From positions 1 to 44,789 of the IMG/VR virus record IMGVR_UViG_3300035145_001847: 44,789 nt of DNA; one strand, 5' to 3'. Position 1 is the stretch's first letter, and each line of letters starts with the position of its first letter. Position numbers and translations under genes: made by a program. Shown here in pieces: positions 7,660-44,789 of this stretch. The DNA is from a virus. The notes beneath the pieces are model-generated. The model saw nothing but the letters and a program-made list of their open reading frames with translations. It searched no databases and was not told the origin of the DNA.

Positions 7660-8510
7660 AAATAAATGATATAAAAGAAAATTTTGCCCTACCTGATATA
7701 AAATATAACAGATATGGTATGCCTGATTATACGCCTTATTTAAAACTAATTTCAAAGGCTTTAGAAGCAAAGTTAGGAAGAGTTCAAATTCAAAAACATC
7801 TAGAAAAGACATTACGAATAAACGCAAGGTCAGCCAGAGAACTTATTAAAAAATGGGAAACAATTAATAAGCAAGTAATACCTATGAAACTCAATGCCGA
7901 AGCCGGTGGCGGTGGTGGTGCTGGTGGCGGTGGTGCTGGTGGCGGTGGTGCTGGTGGCGGTGGTGCTGGTGGCGGTGGAGCCGCAGGTGGCACTGGCGGA
8001 GCAACAGGCGGAACAAGTTCAGGTGGAGACGGAGGGTCTGCAGATGGTGGTAGCACCGGAGATAGTGGTACTACATCCTCCGATTCCACTCCTAGTGATG
8101 CACCTAGTATGGATGCTCCTAGGGGATATGCTTTTTTAGGTAGTATGATGCCTACAAAGAAGAAAAAGAAAAAGAAGAAAAAGAAATCTAAAATAAAATT
8201 TGGTGGTAGCATATACGAAAATGTTGAGCAGATGAAAGATAGACTTTCCGAATTAGAAATTGCCTTACAACGAGCAAAAGAAATCAATAAAAATATTAAA
8301 CGTGATGACACACATATTAATATAATTTCTAAATTAAGTGTAATAGCAGAAGAAGTAGGTTTAGAATTAGATGGTTATCAAGAGACTCAAGTTTTACGAC
8401 TACATAATAAATTAGAAAGTGCATGTTATGAATTAGAAGAAGTATTCAAGGATGCTATAAGAGATATCAAAAACCAAATAGACGAATTAGAATACGATGA
8501 AAATATTTGA
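7656..8510 (+). CDS. Probable internal virion protein with Gly4-Ala repeats and polylysine
   Basis: 284 residues, overlapping the giant gene by 4 bases. The N-terminus MKINDIKE then NF looks like a short T4-type capsid-targeting leader (site IKE). Residues about 1-80 form a helical domain. Residues about 83-150 are a low-complexity linker of GGGGA repeats followed by G/S/T/D-rich sequence. A run of ten lysines lies near residue 170, and residues about 190-284 form a charged coiled coil. The plan suggests a flexible tether joining two helical modules with a DNA- or RNA-contacting lysine patch. No known family is recognised. The Gly repeats are encoded by a 15-bp minisatellite far richer in GC than the surroundings. 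Confidence 0.65.
   Translation: MKINDIKENFALPDIKYNRYGMPDYTPYLKLISKALEAKLGRVQIQKHLEKTLRINARSARELIKKWETINKQVIPMKLNAEAGGGGGAGGGGAGGGGAGGGGAGGGGAAGGTGGATGGTSSGGDGGSADGGSTGDSGTTSSDSTPSDAPSMDAPRGYAFLGSMMPTKKKKKKKKKKSKIKFGGSIYENVEQMKDRLSELEIALQRAKEINKNIKRDDTHINIISKLSVIAEEVGLELDGYQETQVLRLHNKLESACYELEEVFKDAIRDIKNQIDELEYDENI
7902..7979 (+). repeat. 15-bp coding minisatellite (Gly-Gly-Gly-Gly-Ala)
   Basis: Four in-tandem copies of GCTGGTGGCGGTGGT occupy 7920-7979; the first three are identical and the fourth differs in its last base. A degenerate related stretch precedes them at 7902-7919. Near-identity of the units suggests recent slippage or unequal recombination. The array keeps the reading frame and lengthens a flexible linker. 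Confidence 0.9.
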
Positions 8511-9879
8511 TGCTATACAACAGGTAGTTCCTTGCCCAAAAACAAAATCTAAAGGTTGCCAATGTGATAGAGTTGAAACTATCAAAGAAGCAGAAGAAGT
8601 TGTTAAAGCAATAGCACAATTAGAACATACTGTAGACGATGTACAAGGTTTTGTAAAGTTCAAACAAAAACCCGGCCAACCCACAATAATAAAAGGCATA
8701 GTAAAAGGACTAACTCCAGGTAAACATGGATTTCATATTCATGAGTTCGGAGATCTTAGTGATGGTTGTGCAAGTGCAGGTGGTCATTATAATCCAGACG
8801 GTGTAGATCACGGTAGTTTGGATAAAGGTCATGTGGGAGATTTAGGAAATGTTGTAGCAGATCAATCTGGTACTGCAAGATTTCAAATAAAAGCAGAACG
8901 TGTAGTATTATCTGATATAGTGGGTAGAGCAATAGTAATACATGCTGACGAAGATGATTTAGGCAGAGGCGGTGATGAAGAAAGTTTAAAAACAGGTAAT
9001 GCTGGTGACAGAGTTGGTTGTGGTGTAATACGTTTAAGAGAAGTTGTAGAGGAAGAATATCAAAGAAGTGTTAGTGATAAACATTTTGATAGAAACCAAT
9101 TACCACAGATAAGAAGAAACCACATTGAAAAATCACAATTTGATCACAAAGAAGGTAAAATAAGTATAGATAAAATAAAGCCTGTTCAAACTCAACGTGT
9201 AAAAGGATTGAGTAAGAAAGCAGAAGATGTATTTTTAAATAATGCCGATAGGCCTTTTATAATTGACAGAAAAGGATATTTAATAAACGGACATCATAGA
9301 TATGATGCGGCTCATATGTTAGGAATTAAACGTGTCCCTGCAATAATGATAGATGCAGACATAGAAGATGTGATGAAACATTTTTCTCATACAAGTAGTA
9401 ATGTTGAAGTAATGGACGAAAATTATTTTAAAAAATTACTACAAGAAAAAATGGATAATGTTATATATAAGAACTTTAGACGTGATCAATCAATTGAAAA
9501 ACAAATAAATCCAAAAGAGCCACAAGAAGCCTGGGACGCCTATACCGGAGATTATCTTCCATATTATTTTAGCAATGGTATGAAACTAAACTTAATGGAC
9601 GAAGATTACGATCCTAATTATGATGTTTGGGTATTTACTGATTTGAATGGTAATGAAACAAAAGGCGAAAAAGCAAAAGATCTTTACAACTTGTTGCAAG
9701 ATATGACGCAGATACCTATAGAAGAAGCAACAAGTTCTCCAGGCAGAGTAAAACGTGCAGGTGCAAGTTGCAAAGGTTCTGCAACGGAACTTCGCAAGAA
9801 GGCTAAAAAGTATAGCGGTGAAAAAGGAAAGATGTATCACTGGTGTGCCAACATGAAGAGTGGTCGTAAAAAATCTTAA
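8497..9879 (+). CDS. Cu/Zn superoxide dismutase fused to a ParB-like domain and a basic Cys tail
   Basis: 460 residues, start overlapping the upstream gene by 14 bases. Residues about 45-180 are a complete Cu/Zn superoxide dismutase, which converts superoxide to peroxide and oxygen: copper ligands H80, H82, H97, H149; zinc ligands H97, H105, H112, D115; disulfide cysteines C91 and C175; active-site R172. Residues about 195-310 resemble a ParB/Srx-type domain, with RPFIIDRKGYLINGHHRYDA carrying the GHHR signature (H266, H267, R268). The last 45 residues are basic with C and HWC (ASCKGSATELRKKAKK, MYHWCANM). There is no Sec signal. The N-terminus MKIFDAIQQ resembles neighbouring leaders, with IKE at 28-30 as a possible processing site. 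The fusion suggests a nucleic-acid-associated enzyme carried in the virion; that is inference. The SOD assignment is firm. Confidence 0.85.
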   Translation: MKIFDAIQQVVPCPKTKSKGCQCDRVETIKEAEEVVKAIAQLEHTVDDVQGFVKFKQKPGQPTIIKGIVKGLTPGKHGFHIHEFGDLSDGCASAGGHYNPDGVDHGSLDKGHVGDLGNVVADQSGTARFQIKAERVVLSDIVGRAIVIHADEDDLGRGGDEESLKTGNAGDRVGCGVIRLREVVEEEYQRSVSDKHFDRNQLPQIRRNHIEKSQFDHKEGKISIDKIKPVQTQRVKGLSKKAEDVFLNNADRPFIIDRKGYLINGHHRYDAAHMLGIKRVPAIMIDADIEDVMKHFSHTSSNVEVMDENYFKKLLQEKMDNVIYKNFRRDQSIEKQINPKEPQEAWDAYTGDYLPYYFSNGMKLNLMDEDYDPNYDVWVFTDLNGNETKGEKAKDLYNLLQDMTQIPIEEATSSPGRVKRAGASCKGSATELRKKAKKYSGEKGKMYHWCANMKSGRKKS

Positions 9880-24438: not shown

Positions 24439-25956
24439 TTATTCTTTACCTGAGGTAAAGTTTACTACTTGGTCAAAACTAGTACCATCATAATAGTATT
24501 CAGGTGCCGCATCAAGATCTGTTTCTTGACCGCCTACAGCATAAACACCAATGGTATATTCTTCAACTCTGGTCACCCCACTAACGTCACCTCTTACTGC
24601 AAAATGATATTTTCCTGGGACTGTAACATTAGCCATATTAGCAGATGTATCTACAGCACAAATACCAGTAGAAGTATCAAATGTTGCAAATGGTGGTACA
24701 GGACTGAATCCTAATACTGTTACGTTTGAAGCACCACTATTCAAGCCTATATCAACATTGCCTGCTTGACCTTGCTCTAAAGATATAATTAGACCAGAGC
24801 TTGATGTAGCCAAATCAATTGCACCTACTTGAGGACTTGTTCCTATAGATTTTTTAAGTAAACTTGCATTAGCACCAGTTGAAGTAATTAAGTTTGCATC
24901 AAAAGTAATATTAGCACCTTTTCTTAAAGCACTTCCTTCTGCAACAATAAATGACTTAATTTGTGTTGCTGATGATGTTGGTGCTTGTTGTACATATTGT
25001 GCTGATAATCCTGCAATAATGGCAGTAGATGGGCTAGTTCCGTAAGATGTACCATAATTACTAGTATTACTATAATCTGCAATACTTACATTAGAACCTA
25101 ATGCGTAAATATCAACTTCTTCACCTAAGTTACATCCTGCTGAGCCACCGCTCCATGTAGCACTTGCACCAAAGGCTCCTACTTCATAACTAGGATTATA
25201 TGCTCCAACAGTCATAACCTGATCCAAACCTGCTGGGGAATAATTATCTACATCTGCGGCATCATTACCTGCTGAACATACTACCATTATGTTATGAGAT
25301 TCTAATTCTTGTAGTTTTGCGTCTATTAAACTATTTTTTGCTGTTGTCCAAGGCATACATATAGTTTTAACTTTACTAGGTGTATTTGCATTGTGATGAA
25401 CTAAAGCGGCGTTCATTGCCTCTATAATTGTGCCTACTGACACTGAAGAGGATAAACCATTACTAAATTTGAGATTCATTAATGTTGCACTTGGAGATAC
25501 ACCAATATTCTCACCTACAATTAAACTTGCCATTGCAGTACCGTGTCCTACTGTATCTGCATAATCTGAATCAAATGCTGTATATAAATTTGTAATAGTA
25601 GCATTGGCAAATTCTGTATGTGCTTCATTAATACCAGTGTCCATTAAATAAACAGTAGACCCGTTTCCATTATATTGAGGGTTGTATGCTCTTGCTAAAC
25701 TGTTATTATAAGGATTAGCAAGGTGCTTTAAGTGGTCTGTAGAGTATTGTACAGTAACATTTTCAGTTGCACTTTCAAGTGAACTATGCAAAACACCTGC
25801 TATTGCGGCAAGTTGCTCTGCTGTACAGTCAATTTTGTACGTTAAATTAAAAGAGTATGTCTCCGTAATCGTTGCCCCTGCGCCTGTAATAGCACTTTGA
25901 GCCGCTGTTGCGTCAGCATGTGTTCCGCTATCTAATGCTACAATATATGCCGCCAT
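24439..25956 (-). CDS. Subtilisin-like serine protease (family S8)
   Basis: 505 residues. Residues 1-75 look like an I9-type inhibitory prodomain (AAYIVALDSG start). The catalytic domain spans about 95-330 with all S8 residues: D106 (LMDTGIN), H138 (VGHGTAMAS), oxyanion N231 (CSAGNDAA) and S308 (YGTSPSTAIIAG). Residues about 370-475 look like an Ig/cadherin-type beta domain. There is no Sec signal peptide, so it probably acts in the cytoplasm or as part of the virion. Late promoter at 26003-26010 and Shine-Dalgarno GGAG. Possible roles are virion maturation, receptor or S-layer cleavage, or peptide maturation with the neighbouring radical SAM gene. The protease call is firm; the substrate is unknown. 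Confidence 0.9.
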   Translation of the reverse strand: MAAYIVALDSGTHADATAAQSAITGAGATITETYSFNLTYKIDCTAEQLAAIAGVLHSSLESATENVTVQYSTDHLKHLANPYNNSLARAYNPQYNGNGSTVYLMDTGINEAHTEFANATITNLYTAFDSDYADTVGHGTAMASLIVGENIGVSPSATLMNLKFSNGLSSSVSVGTIIEAMNAALVHHNANTPSKVKTICMPWTTAKNSLIDAKLQELESHNIMVVCSAGNDAADVDNYSPAGLDQVMTVGAYNPSYEVGAFGASATWSGGSAGCNLGEEVDIYALGSNVSIADYSNTSNYGTSYGTSPSTAIIAGLSAQYVQQAPTSSATQIKSFIVAEGSALRKGANITFDANLITSTGANASLLKKSIGTSPQVGAIDLATSSSGLIISLEQGQAGNVDIGLNSGASNVTVLGFSPVPPFATFDTSTGICAVDTSANMANVTVPGKYHFAVRGDVSGVTRVEEYTIGVYAVGGQETDLDAAPEYYYDGTSFDQVVNFTSGKE

Positions 25957-29128: not shown

Positions 29129-29935
29129 ATGTCAGTAAAAGATATGTCTTACCGCGAACGCGGATTATTACTTAGTATGTTCGCTCACCAATGTTATTGC
29201 GAACCTAAGGATTTATTGAAAAAGAGACCAGGTATTAAAGACTTGGAACCTCTTAAAAAGTTTTTAAACAAACCATTACCACCAACATATATAGATGTTG
29301 ATGGTGCTCAGGCTTATGTAATGAGTGACAGCAAAGATGTCCTTATTGCATGTAGAGGCACAGAGCCAACGCAACTGAATGACATATTAGCAGATTTAAA
29401 AATGTTTCCAGTGAAGCATCATTTAGGTGGTAGAGTTCATAGAGGTTTTTATGCAGAGTATGATAAAGTAATTCCAGGTATTAAAGAAGCTCTTGAAAAA
29501 CACAATAAGAAAGGCGATAAGACAGTTTGGGTTACGGGACATAGTTTAGGTGGAGCAATGGCAGTATTAGTTGCCGCAGAGTTACAACCAGATGGAGGAT
29601 TACATACATTTGGACAACCAAGAGTTGGAAACGCCGAATTCCTTAAATGTTTAGATAACATAAAGTATTACAGGTATAGAAACAATAATGATGTTGTTAC
29701 AGCAGTTCCTCCTTCATGGTTATTCTTTAGACACGGTGGTGTACTTAGATATATTAACACTTTTGGTAATATAAGGAAAGCAACATACTGGCAAAGATTT
29801 AAAGACAAATGCAGAGGTCACTGGCAGGCATTAAAATCATTTAACCTAATAGATGGATTCGCTGATCATTCTATGGGTCTATATCATGAATACTTGTTTA
29901 ACATGGATGACAACGGTGATCAATTACCAAAATAG
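29129..29935 (+). CDS. Class 3 lipase (alpha/beta hydrolase)
   Basis: 268 residues. Fungal-type lipase-3 fold: VLIACRGTEP (oxyanion region), GRVHRGFYAEYD, VTGHSLGGAMAVL with nucleophile S139, FGQPRVGNAEF, NNNDVVTAVPP with D188, and a C-terminal His in FADHSMGLYHEYL (H247 or H253). The complete triad suggests an active lipase or phospholipase. No signal peptide, so it would act on membranes from inside, or after lysis or from the virion. Late promoter and strong Shine-Dalgarno site. A lysis or membrane-remodelling role is inferred. Confidence 0.88.
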   Translation: MSVKDMSYRERGLLLSMFAHQCYCEPKDLLKKRPGIKDLEPLKKFLNKPLPPTYIDVDGAQAYVMSDSKDVLIACRGTEPTQLNDILADLKMFPVKHHLGGRVHRGFYAEYDKVIPGIKEALEKHNKKGDKTVWVTGHSLGGAMAVLVAAELQPDGGLHTFGQPRVGNAEFLKCLDNIKYYRYRNNNDVVTAVPPSWLFFRHGGVLRYINTFGNIRKATYWQRFKDKCRGHWQALKSFNLIDGFADHSMGLYHEYLFNMDDNGDQLPK

Positions 29936-30533: not shown

Positions 30534-30609
30534 GCTGGATTAGCTCAGTTGGTAGAGCAACTGATTTGTAATCAGTAGGTCGTCAGTTCGAATCCGACAT
30601 CCAGCACCA
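30534..30609 (+). tRNA. tRNA-Thr (anticodon TGT)
   Basis: 76 bases with encoded CCA. Acceptor GCTGGAT pairs with ATCCAGC, D-arm TAGCTCAGTTGGTAGAGCA, anticodon stem ACTGA/TCAGT around loop TTTGTAA (anticodon TGT), T-loop TTCGAAT. It reads ACA, a frequent codon in this AT-rich genome. Confidence 0.97.
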
Positions 30610-30624
30610 ATTTAAGGAAATAAT

Positions 30625-30825
30625 ATGGCAAAGACAAAAACAACAAAAGCAAAGGCACCAGCAAAGAAAACCGCTAAAAAAGTAACCAAGAAAAAAGTTG
30701 TAGCAAATTTTGATTGGAATAATGTTGGGGAAAATGTAAGAAAAAATGCAGAACAAATAAGTGCTAACATTAGAAAAAATGCTGAAAGAATAGGCAATAA
30801 TGTAAGAGCATTAATGGATAGATGA
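30625..30825 (+). CDS. Histone-H1-like mini protein with 11-residue repeats
   Basis: 66 residues between two tRNA genes, with AAGGAAATAATATG as start site. The N-terminal half is a Lys/Ala/Thr-rich tail (AKTKTTKAKAPAKKTAKK) like bacterial H1 homologues. The C-terminal half has an 11-residue periodicity (NVRKNAEQISA, NIRKNAERIGN, NVRALMDR) giving an amphipathic helix. It probably binds nucleic acid. Whether it is related to tRNA expression or to nucleoid takeover cannot be told from sequence. Confidence 0.75.
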   Translation: MAKTKTTKAKAPAKKTAKKVTKKKVVANFDWNNVGENVRKNAEQISANIRKNAERIGNNVRALMDR

Positions 30826-30831
30826 TAATTT

Positions 30832-30907
30832 GGGGCGGTAGCTCAGTTGGGAGAGCGCCTGGTTTGCAACCAGGAGGTCGCAGGTTCGACCCCTGTTCGC
30901 TCCACCA
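30832..30907 (+). tRNA. tRNA-Ala (anticodon TGC)
   Basis: 76 bases with encoded CCA. Acceptor GGGGCGG pairs with TCGCTCC (two G-T pairs), anticodon stem CCTGG/CCAGG around loop TTTGCAA (anticodon TGC), T-arm GCAGG-TTCGACC-CCTGT. It reads GCA. Markedly more GC-rich than its surroundings, as expected for a tRNA. Confidence 0.97.
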
Positions 30908-40399: not shown

Positions 40400-40474
40400 G
40401 CCCTGTTCGTCTAGTGGTTAGGACACATGGTTTTCATCCATGCAACAGGAGTTCGATTCTCCTACAGGGTACCA
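40400..40474 (+). tRNA. tRNA-Glu (anticodon TTC)
   Basis: 75 bases with encoded CCA. Acceptor GCCCTGT pairs with ACAGGGT (first pair G-T), anticodon stem CATGG/CCATG around loop TTTTCAT (anticodon TTC), T-loop TTCGATT. Reads GAA, the commonest Glu codon here. Confidence 0.96.
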
Positions 40475-42501: not shown

Positions 42502-42509
42502 AATAAATA
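42502..42509 (+). promoter_or_regulatory. Late promoter (AATAAATA), leaderless arrangement
   Basis: AATAAATA, then GTAGT, then the ATG at 42515. Confidence 0.85.
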
Positions 42510-42514
42510 GTAGT

Positions 42515-43057
42515 ATGTTAGAACCTACTGATAAATGGCTATGCGAACTAGTTGAGCCTAAACATCCTGCTCTACATAAACCTGCGGATATAGATCCTTT
42601 TACTGCTCCAGAAGATGCCAATTGGGCACAAAGGGAAGTAGACATGTTTGAACTTATGCACAATAGACATGGCATAGGATTAGCAAGTCCACAAATAGGC
42701 AATAGTTATAATATGTTTGTTATGAATTTACATGGTTCAGGAGATGTAGGTGTTTACAATCCTAAGATACTTGAATTCAGCGAAGAAACTGTAAACATGG
42801 AAGAAGGTTGTTTAACATTTCCTTTATTATATTTTATGGTTAATCGTCCTGCAAAATGCAAAGTAAGTTATACTCTTTATGATGGTGTTACAGAAGTAGA
42901 AGATTGGTTAGATGGGATAGATGCAAGGTGCTTTCAACATGAATTTGAACACTTACAGGGAAAACTTTATCTTGATCATGCTAGTGAACTTAAATTACAA
43001 CGTGCTAAAAAGAAAAGAGACAAATACTTTAAGGAAATACAAAGGGCAACTAGATAA
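42515..43057 (+). CDS. def: Peptide deformylase
   Basis: 180 residues. Removes the formyl group from the N-terminal Met of new proteins. Motif 1 GIGLASPQIG (G53 to Q60 region; Ser replaces the usual second Ala), motif 2 EEGCLTFP (metal ligand C99) and motif 3 QHEFEHLQGKLY (H142, E143, H146) are all present. It uses an N-terminal extension typical of bacterial enzymes, and the C-terminal helix is basic. Phage deformylases are known from marine myoviruses. Leaderless late promoter; shares its last base with the GH6 gene. Confidence 0.93.
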   Translation: MLEPTDKWLCELVEPKHPALHKPADIDPFTAPEDANWAQREVDMFELMHNRHGIGLASPQIGNSYNMFVMNLHGSGDVGVYNPKILEFSEETVNMEEGCLTFPLLYFMVNRPAKCKVSYTLYDGVTEVEDWLDGIDARCFQHEFEHLQGKLYLDHASELKLQRAKKKRDKYFKEIQRATR

Positions 43058-43905
43058 TGTTTAATTATCCTTTTTGGGTAAACGACTTTGACAGAGTAAA
43101 AGATCACAGAATTACCCATCCAGAAGTTGCAAAAATATTTGAACAACCTGTAGCATTCTGGTACGGGGCAAAAAAGAACAAAAATGCAACAAAAAATTTA
43201 GATAAAAGTCTTAAACGTCTTTTAAAAAGAACACTTCCAGGGTTACCTTACTTTGTGTTATACAACTTACCTAACAGAGATTTAGGACATTACAGCAAAG
43301 GAGGAGCCTCTGATGCCACAGAATACTTATTATTCCTACAAGAGTTTTGTGCAGGCATTGAAGGACATAAACCAATTGTAATATTAGAGCCTGATGCCTT
43401 ACCTCATACTACATTAATGAATAGCGATCAAGCAGAATATCGTATAAACTTATTACAAGCAGGTATTGATATACTTACAGAAGAAAGTGATGCTTATGTG
43501 TATGTTGACATAGGACACAGTAATTGGTTAGACCCTAAAGACGCCGCTGAACTGATCACAAGGGTCTCTAATGACCGTGTTAGGGGGTTTAGTGTTAATG
43601 TTAGTAACTATAGATCAACAAAAGAAAGCATGGAATGGGCCTTAAAGATATGTGAATATAATGATAATTGGAACTTTGTTATAGATACAAGTCGCAATGG
43701 TAATGGCCCTCACGGTAATGATTGGTGTAATCCGCCGGGTAGACTAGTAGGAGAATTTCCAACATGTAATACAGGTGAGGAAAAATGTGATGCATTCTTA
43801 TGGATTAAAATACCCGGAGAGTCAGATGGAAAAGGTAATGGTGGACCCAGAGCTGGAAAGTTTTGGCCTGAGATGGCTACAGAATTAGTTAAGGATATTA
43901 ACTAA
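43057..43905 (+). CDS. Glycoside hydrolase family 6 (cellulase-type) enzyme
   Basis: 282 residues. Family 6 signatures are complete: YNLPNRDLGHYSKGGASD with D75 (equivalent of Trichoderma Cel6A D175), VILEPDALPH with D113 (the D221 proton donor), YVDIGHSNWL, FSVNVSNYRS, FVIDTSRNGNG, DWCNPPGRLVGEFPT and LWIKIPGESDG with D257 (D401 equivalent). GH6 enzymes cut beta-1,4-glucan by inversion. There is no signal peptide, linker or carbohydrate-binding module, so this is the catalytic domain alone. It would act after lysis, from the virion, or on an internal glucan. It overlaps the deformylase by one base and the convergent gene by eight bases. A depolymerase role against a beta-glucan surface is inferred. 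Confidence 0.9.
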   Translation: MFNYPFWVNDFDRVKDHRITHPEVAKIFEQPVAFWYGAKKNKNATKNLDKSLKRLLKRTLPGLPYFVLYNLPNRDLGHYSKGGASDATEYLLFLQEFCAGIEGHKPIVILEPDALPHTTLMNSDQAEYRINLLQAGIDILTEESDAYVYVDIGHSNWLDPKDAAELITRVSNDRVRGFSVNVSNYRSTKESMEWALKICEYNDNWNFVIDTSRNGNGPHGNDWCNPPGRLVGEFPTCNTGEEKCDAFLWIKIPGESDGKGNGGPRAGKFWPEMATELVKDIN

Positions 43906-44275
43906 CACCTGAAGGATCAGAAACGTCAACAGTATCTGGACTAGGTTCTACCTCATGATCTGCTCTTGGTGAATTTAATTCTGCTTCTAAATAGTTTTTA
44001 GCACCTTGTAAATAACTATGTGCCTTAACAATTTTTGCTTGCCACCAATGAGGGAAATCTGAATCAGGTAAGTCTTTTAACATTTTATGTAAGTCAATAG
44101 CATTTTTACCAATAAGATATAATTCTTTAGAGATCATACCCCTTTCATTATCTATGTGACCTACAGCAACTTTTTTAGTATCGCCTTCACCAGTATCTGA
44201 TTTATAATCAACGCCTGGCTCACCGTCTTCGTTTACTATTCCTGCTAATTGTTGTAGTCTATCTATTTCGTTCAT
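43898..44275 (-). CDS. Hypothetical protein with head-leader-like N-terminus
   Basis: 125 residues. The start at 44275 (MNEIDRLQQLAGIVNE then DGEPG) is chosen because it lies exactly five bases after the octamer; the longer frame begins inside the promoter. The first 16 residues resemble the leaders of head-targeted proteins, with NE as a possible cleavage site. The rest is acidic with a helical core (FPHWWQAKIVKAHSYLQGAK). Convergent with the GH6 gene (eight-base overlap). Function unknown; may be virion-packaged. Confidence 0.65.
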   Translation of the reverse strand: MNEIDRLQQLAGIVNEDGEPGVDYKSDTGEGDTKKVAVGHIDNERGMISKELYLIGKNAIDLHKMLKDLPDSDFPHWWQAKIVKAHSYLQGAKNYLEAELNSPRADHEVEPSPDTVDVSDPSGVS

Positions 44276-44279
44276 ACAC

Positions 44280-44789
44280 TTATTTATCAAATATTTTAAA
44301 AAATTCTTTTTCTAATTTTACAAGTTCTGGCTTAGTCCTAAAGTGTTCTTGATTGTGTTTACATAAATCTAAAATTTCATTAGTATTTAATTTTTCTTCC
44401 AGTTGAGAAAGAGATAGATTACTTAAATCTTTTAACATTTTAAGATCATTTAAAATACAAGTTTTATAATCTTTGGTGTCGCCTACGCCTCCTAATACTT
44501 CGTTGAAGGACCTATATCCATATTCTTCATGAATAGTTTTATTAAAAGGTAGTCCTAATGTTAAAAAGGGCATGCCTGCCACCATAGGCTTGAATGTCTT
44601 TTCAGTAAAATATATCCTTTTGCAATCTGTTTCAGTGTATAATAATTCTAAATTTTCGTAAAATACATGTAAATCATGTGTTAAACATATACCACAATCT
44701 AAATGATGTCCGTAAGAATCCCATTCGCCTGGGCCATCTATTGGGCATTCTAAAGGTATTTCAGGAATATTATATTCGTCTTTTACTAT
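44280..44789 (-). CDS. Glycosyltransferase-like protein (5' end outside the window)
   Basis: The minus-strand frame is open from the right edge, so at least 169 residues are present and the start lies beyond the window. IYFTEKTFKPMVAGMPFLTL resembles the donor-binding TEK...aG.PF motif of phage and GT10-type glycosyltransferases, followed by a segment YGYRSFNEVLGG. It ends FFKIFDK, whose last codons plus stop form the late promoter of the downstream gene. The family call rests on one motif only. Confidence 0.5.
   Translation of the reverse strand: MVKDEYNIPEIPLECPIDGPGEWDSYGHHLDCGICLTHDLHVFYENLELLYTETDCKRIYFTEKTFKPMVAGMPFLTLGLPFNKTIHEEYGYRSFNEVLGGVGDTKDYKTCILNDLKMLKDLSNLSLSQLEEKLNTNEILDLCKHNQEHFRTKPELVKLEKEFFKIFDK
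44281..44288 (-). promoter_or_regulatory. Minus-strand late promoter embedded in the end of the upstream gene
   Basis: GATAAATA reads as Asp-Lys-stop of the glycosyltransferase-like gene, then AGTGT, then the ATG at 44275. Leaderless arrangement. Confidence 0.8.

Follow-up and report, generated by a model that had tools for sequence, protein, structure and literature searches.

A phage that carries a cellulase-type enzyme raises the question of what such a protein would cut, and how it would reach its substrate when it has no export signal. We addressed this question for one gene of the window, which is a whole virus record of 44,789 bases. The gene and its two catalytic codons are as follows.

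43057..43905, + strand: GH6 (endo-beta-1,4-glucanase type) gene, 282 aa, single domain, without signal peptide; assigned by Pfam, PDB, fold and catalytic residues
43393..43395, + strand: Asp113 codon, equivalent to the catalytic acid Asp117 of T. fusca Cel6A; invariant in 72/72 distinct viral proteins
43825..43827, + strand: Asp257 codon, equivalent to the proposed catalytic base Asp265 of T. fusca Cel6A; invariant in 72/72 distinct viral proteins

Family, fold and active site

The sole Pfam match of the reading frame is PF01341 (Glyco_hydro_6), with E=2e-50 and 172.8 bits against a cut-off of 27, and this match is far beyond chance. The top PDB sequence matches are the endoglucanases 1up0/1uoz (M. 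tuberculosis), 6fao (compost metagenome) and 1tml (T. fusca). An AlphaFold model built on 45 aligned sequences reached a pLDDT of 90.3 and a pTM of 0.91. GH6 endoglucanase structures matched this model with TM values of 0.83-0.90 (1up0: 0.90/0.87), and cellobiohydrolases ranked below them, with target-normalised values of 0.46-0.65. A tentative assignment to the endoglucanase subtype, in which the cleft is open and lacks the long tunnel loops of cellobiohydrolases, is based on length and on the best matches being endoglucanases. A fold search of BFVD returned no GH6 match, and NCBIfam and PHROGs yielded no family matching the protein. Membership of the window protein in GH6 is practically certain.

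The active site was mapped on T. fusca Cel6A as reference, using 72 distinct viral proteins. Residues W35, Y69, R74, D75, D113, D151, W157, N184, R213, K251, E255 and D257 are invariant in all of them, and H154, S183 and W223 are close to invariant. The Tyr73/Asp79/Asp156 network of Cel6A thereby corresponds to Y69, D75 and D151 of the window protein. In eight of the 72 proteins, W231 and C232 are replaced by H and F. The original prediction of a complete GH6 catalytic domain in a phage, with its catalytic motifs intact, is borne out: the Pfam match spans 15-298 of the 305 profile positions, none of the mapped catalytic and substrate residues of Cel6A is missing, and the predicted fold is compatible with the family (TM up to 0.90). 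As also predicted, neither a signal peptide nor a binding module is present: the reading frame starts at the catalytic domain.

A viral GH6 clade in two phage lineages

Pattern scans of IMG/VR revealed about 205 stretches that encode GH6 relatives, of which the best 80 were retained for comparison. Identities range from 98% down to 44%, and each of seven long records searched holds one GH6 copy. We calculated a tree of 27 viral representatives and 29 other sequences (26 bacterial loci, T. fusca Cel6A, the Gilgamesh record and a fecal phage record). All 27 viral representatives formed a single clade apart from bacterial GH6, with support 100/100. The cellular sample was limited to the best 80 bacterial matches listed, most of which are Streptomyces proteins with 36-46% identity. 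A scan of genome contigs with a phage-only GH6 alignment found no bacterial relative, whereas a mixed alignment did find them. Ratios of dN/dS were 0.03-0.15 in 13 viral pairs, one further pair being saturated, and indicate that viral GH6 is under strong purifying selection. Since about two hundred viral contigs carry it and it forms a separate viral lineage, GH6 has the appearance of standard equipment in these phages.

Artefact or contamination as the source of the gene was ruled out by the many independent contigs, the viral neighbours and the single clade. A recent transfer from host to phage was ruled out as well, because no cellular protein falls inside the viral clade. The gene might also be an auxiliary one that feeds the host on environmental cellulose, as viral GH6 from Mariana Trench sediments has been interpreted (PMC8725595). 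We regard this as highly improbable here, since the clade is viral and deep and represents no recent copy of a host gene, and since a leaderless enzyme would stay in the living cell unless another route exists. The stem of the viral clade is long (0.88 changes per column), which, together with the H and F replacement described above, would suit an enzyme that retained the GH6 fold and took up a new, non-cellulolytic substrate. The invariance of the catalytic and of most sugar-site residues argues against such a change, and we consider it improbable.

Clade members occur in two phage lineages, namely Group I, the large, gp23-bearing group to which the window belongs, and Group II. The T4-type assignment of the window's lineage is taken from the Group I relative G015 (339,794 bases) and not from the window fragment; G015 encodes T4 gp23 (E=2.3e-81) and a T4-type terminase. 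A search for gp23 in 14 shorter records found none, so the lineage is set by this 340-kb relative. Compared with the Pseudomonas phages PA5oct, MIJ3 and Paride, the last filed as Arenbergviridae, Wroclawvirus, this relative shows 70% identity in the capsid protein and 56% in the terminase. For a clamp loader encoded on another contig of Group I, identity to the same phages is 55%. GH6 was not detectable by tblastn in PA5oct, MIJ3 or Paride. In Group II, GH6 (44-47% identity) follows an unknown gene and lies near gp32 and UvsX, and the UvsX is 52% identical to a Microcystis phage UvsX. The description of the phage as T4-like thus holds for the lineage. Of what had been proposed about the gene, the cellulase-type identity, the absence of export parts and the T4-type phage stand. 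The view of family 6 as an oddity in this phage does not, given that the viral clade is widespread and that two further phage records have GH6 of separate origin.

By eye, a 110-kb relative (G003, 60,001-80,000; L042) contains a gene run resembling SufC, SufD and SufS of iron-sulphur assembly. The window itself encodes three tRNAs (Thr, Ala and Glu, at 30534-30907 and 40400-40474).

Leaderless form, gene context and late promoter motif

In the 72 distinct viral proteins the reading frame opens with the catalytic domain or with no more than a few residues ahead of it, and none of them has a signal peptide, lipobox, binding module, anchoring or extra domain. The retained proteins are all single-domain and mostly 272-290 aa long, with a maximum of 318. 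T. fusca Cel6A has two disulphides, C80-C125 and C232-C267. The positions of C80 and C125 lack Cys in 72/72 viral proteins, and a C267-equivalent Cys (GESDGxC) is retained in 13/72 and absent from the window protein. As judged from the alignment, both disulphides of secreted GH6 are gone in most viral proteins, a loss that is consistent with folding in a reducing cytoplasm and no proof of it. C224 and C244 are each found in 64/72 proteins and are co-present or co-absent in the printed motifs. The marks of a secreted bacterial cellulase, a signal peptide or lipobox and the two Cel6A disulphides, are accordingly not found in the viral enzymes.

The genes and the motif that surround GH6 in the window are the following.

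42502..42509, + strand: AATAAATA, late promoter motif of T4 type, with a gap of 5 nt to the deformylase ATG (42515)
42515..43057, + strand: peptide deformylase gene (PF01327, E=2.9e-36); stop codon and GH6 start share 1 base (TAATG)
43898..44290, - strand: convergent gene of cluster c0 with an LQQLAGI motif; a common downstream neighbour, c0 occurring in 68/90 loci

A deformylase neighbours GH6 in 60 of 90 viral loci and lies directly upstream in 45, with gaps of -23 to +8; this is the usual Group I arrangement. Deformylase and GH6 travel together, because among the 80 loci listed GH6 lies downstream of 17/17 deformylases of the window's subfamily and of 0/63 other deformylases. Glycosyltransferase-like genes are found upstream of GH6 in Group I. 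The convergent c0 gene has no Pfam or PHROG match. Its LQQLAGI resembles LRKLAGL at the end of a gp23-adjacent protein (L240, 2595-3707, - strand), and LxxLAG might be a head-targeting signal. Elsewhere in the window, a subtilase-family protease (24439-25956, - strand), a class 3 lipase (29129-29935) and a Cu/Zn superoxide dismutase domain (8497-9879) are of types that are usually exported, and no signal peptide was obvious in them by eye.

These neighbourhoods bear on the possibility that GH6 belongs to the virion, either attached to tail or baseplate or enclosed in the head, and acts as a depolymerase does, by cutting through a glucan coat during entry. The late-type motif on the GH6 unit would fit a structural protein, a minor tail gene stands two genes ahead of GH6 in Streptomyces phage Gilgamesh, and the two-domain cellulases of phage S6 have N-terminal domains that may attach to the particle (PMC9544554). 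However, an attachment domain occurs in 0/72 viral proteins, and the immediate neighbours are a deformylase, an SprT-like protease or gp32/uvsX, with neither tail genes nor a tail fusion. Head packaging by an LxxLAG-type signal was considered and rejected, as GH6 lacks this motif of head-region proteins. Taken together, we consider a virion protein rather unlikely.

The late promoter reads TATAAATA in T4 and NATAAATA in the T4-like cyanophage S-PM2 (PMC2984593). A scan for (T/A)ATAAATA covered the window plus 19 pieces taken from five long contigs of Group I (L039-L057); 40 of 91 sites lay within 60 nt of a gene start. The gap to the gene start is exactly 5 nt in 21 of these 40 and 6 nt in 3, while five permuted motifs in the same scan gave a single case at gap 6 and no case at gap 5. 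The window sites are 9879, 24408 (- strand), 39598 and 42502. Applied to a T4 region, the same scan found gaps from 14 to 35, most of them 24-28, together with ribosome sites, and never a gap of 5; 47 kb examined of Paride contained no gap-5 motif. With any base allowed at the first position, the motif heads the GH6 unit in 26/56 distinct Group I loci, usually at gap 5, and in one locus (L210) it stands directly before GH6, with no deformylase preceding. It is absent from the GH6 unit in the other 30/56 Group I loci and in 15/15 Group II loci. TATAAATA was not enriched when counted over the 300 bases that precede GH6 itself; the motif was seen only at the head of the transcription unit. In T4 the late motif is centred at -10. 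If the same holds here, a gap of 5 would place the RNA start at the A of the ATG. The gap-5 motif in Group I suggests late expression, perhaps from leaderless mRNA.

A leaderless enzyme might instead work within the infected cell, in a metabolic or anti-coat role, with a beta-1,4-glucan or another glycan made by host or phage as its substrate. The missing export signal and lost disulphides, the replication genes adjoining GH6 in Group II and the glycosyltransferase-like genes of Group I agree with such a role. Against it, the late-type motif fits a late product better, and bacteria are not generally known to have a cytoplasmic pool of cellulose. Intracellular action appears distinctly unlikely.

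The best reading, to which we assign a probability of roughly 0.5, is a late cytosolic GH6 that is freed by lysis and opens a cellulose-like matrix around host cells. GH6 would be a genuine inverting endo-beta-1,4-glucanase, kept as a lineage gene by large T4-type phages and made in the cytoplasm from a unit shared with the deformylase and headed by the T4-type late promoter motif. It would accumulate until lysis and then be set free alongside the progeny. Once free, it could act on the matrix around the host and neighbouring cells, cutting its cellulose or cellulose-like beta-1,4-glucan and so helping virions to leave and to reach new cells. Catalytic activity, late timing, release and substrate are what we infer here. 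Counted in favour are the computed family and fold, the invariant active site, the leaderless form, the lost disulphides, the conservation seen in dN/dS and the viral clade; further support comes from the deformylase linkage in the neighbourhood, the late motif and the phage S6 precedent. Counted against are the reported activity of some GH6 enzymes on xylan or chitin (PMC9040799), the missing carbohydrate-binding module and the loci in both groups that lack the late motif. The Group II site near gp32/uvsX is not an obvious lysis setting and also speaks against it. Release of progeny, which had been proposed from the start, is favoured by the missing signal peptide, the late-type motif in many relatives and the lost disulphides.

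More tentatively, and at somewhat less than an even chance, large T4-type phages may share a core, late, cytosolic GH6 that is released only by lysis and aimed at a cellulose-like coat, on hosts for which no such coat is known. On this view, some of the late genes would be read from leaderless mRNAs starting at the ATG of NATAAATA-N5-ATG.

Meaning and comparison with known systems

That GH6 has been retained in about two hundred contigs and across deep divergence implies that these phages regularly meet a beta-1,4-glucan as an obstacle or target in their life cycle, and points to cellulose-like coats on their hosts. GH6 can serve as a marker gene for these phages. Enzymes with neither leader nor the usual disulphides should, furthermore, pose few problems in expression and testing.

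T. fusca Cel6A (1tml) and M. tuberculosis Cel6 (1up0) share fold and catalytic and substrate residues with the phage protein at 33-34% identity. In contrast to them, the phage protein lacks signal peptide, binding module and the Cel6A disulphides and belongs to a separate viral clade. Judged by description, CslZ of the Streptomyces cslA-glxA locus is likewise a GH6 without binding module, but it is a putative lipoprotein, whereas phage GH6 has no leader (PMC9040799). Streptomyces phage Gilgamesh and the fecal phage record MT836874 carry a GH6 domain like the window, yet these are about 33-34% identical and are placed among bacterial GH6, outside the viral clade. A viral GH6 from Mariana Trench sediment was also annotated as a cellulase; it is a single report of an auxiliary gene of bacterial origin and is set beside the clade by description only (PMC8725595). 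Viral GH6 was thus known before, and the widespread clade appears to be unreported: we found no account of it in the literature searched, which left most subscription journals out of reach. A precedent is Erwinia phage S6, which requires host cellulose for infection and has an active GH5 cellulase (PMC9544554). Its gp094 (GH48) and gp095 (GH5) are phage-encoded cellulases like the window GH6, but they belong to other families, have two domains and are possibly attached to the particle.
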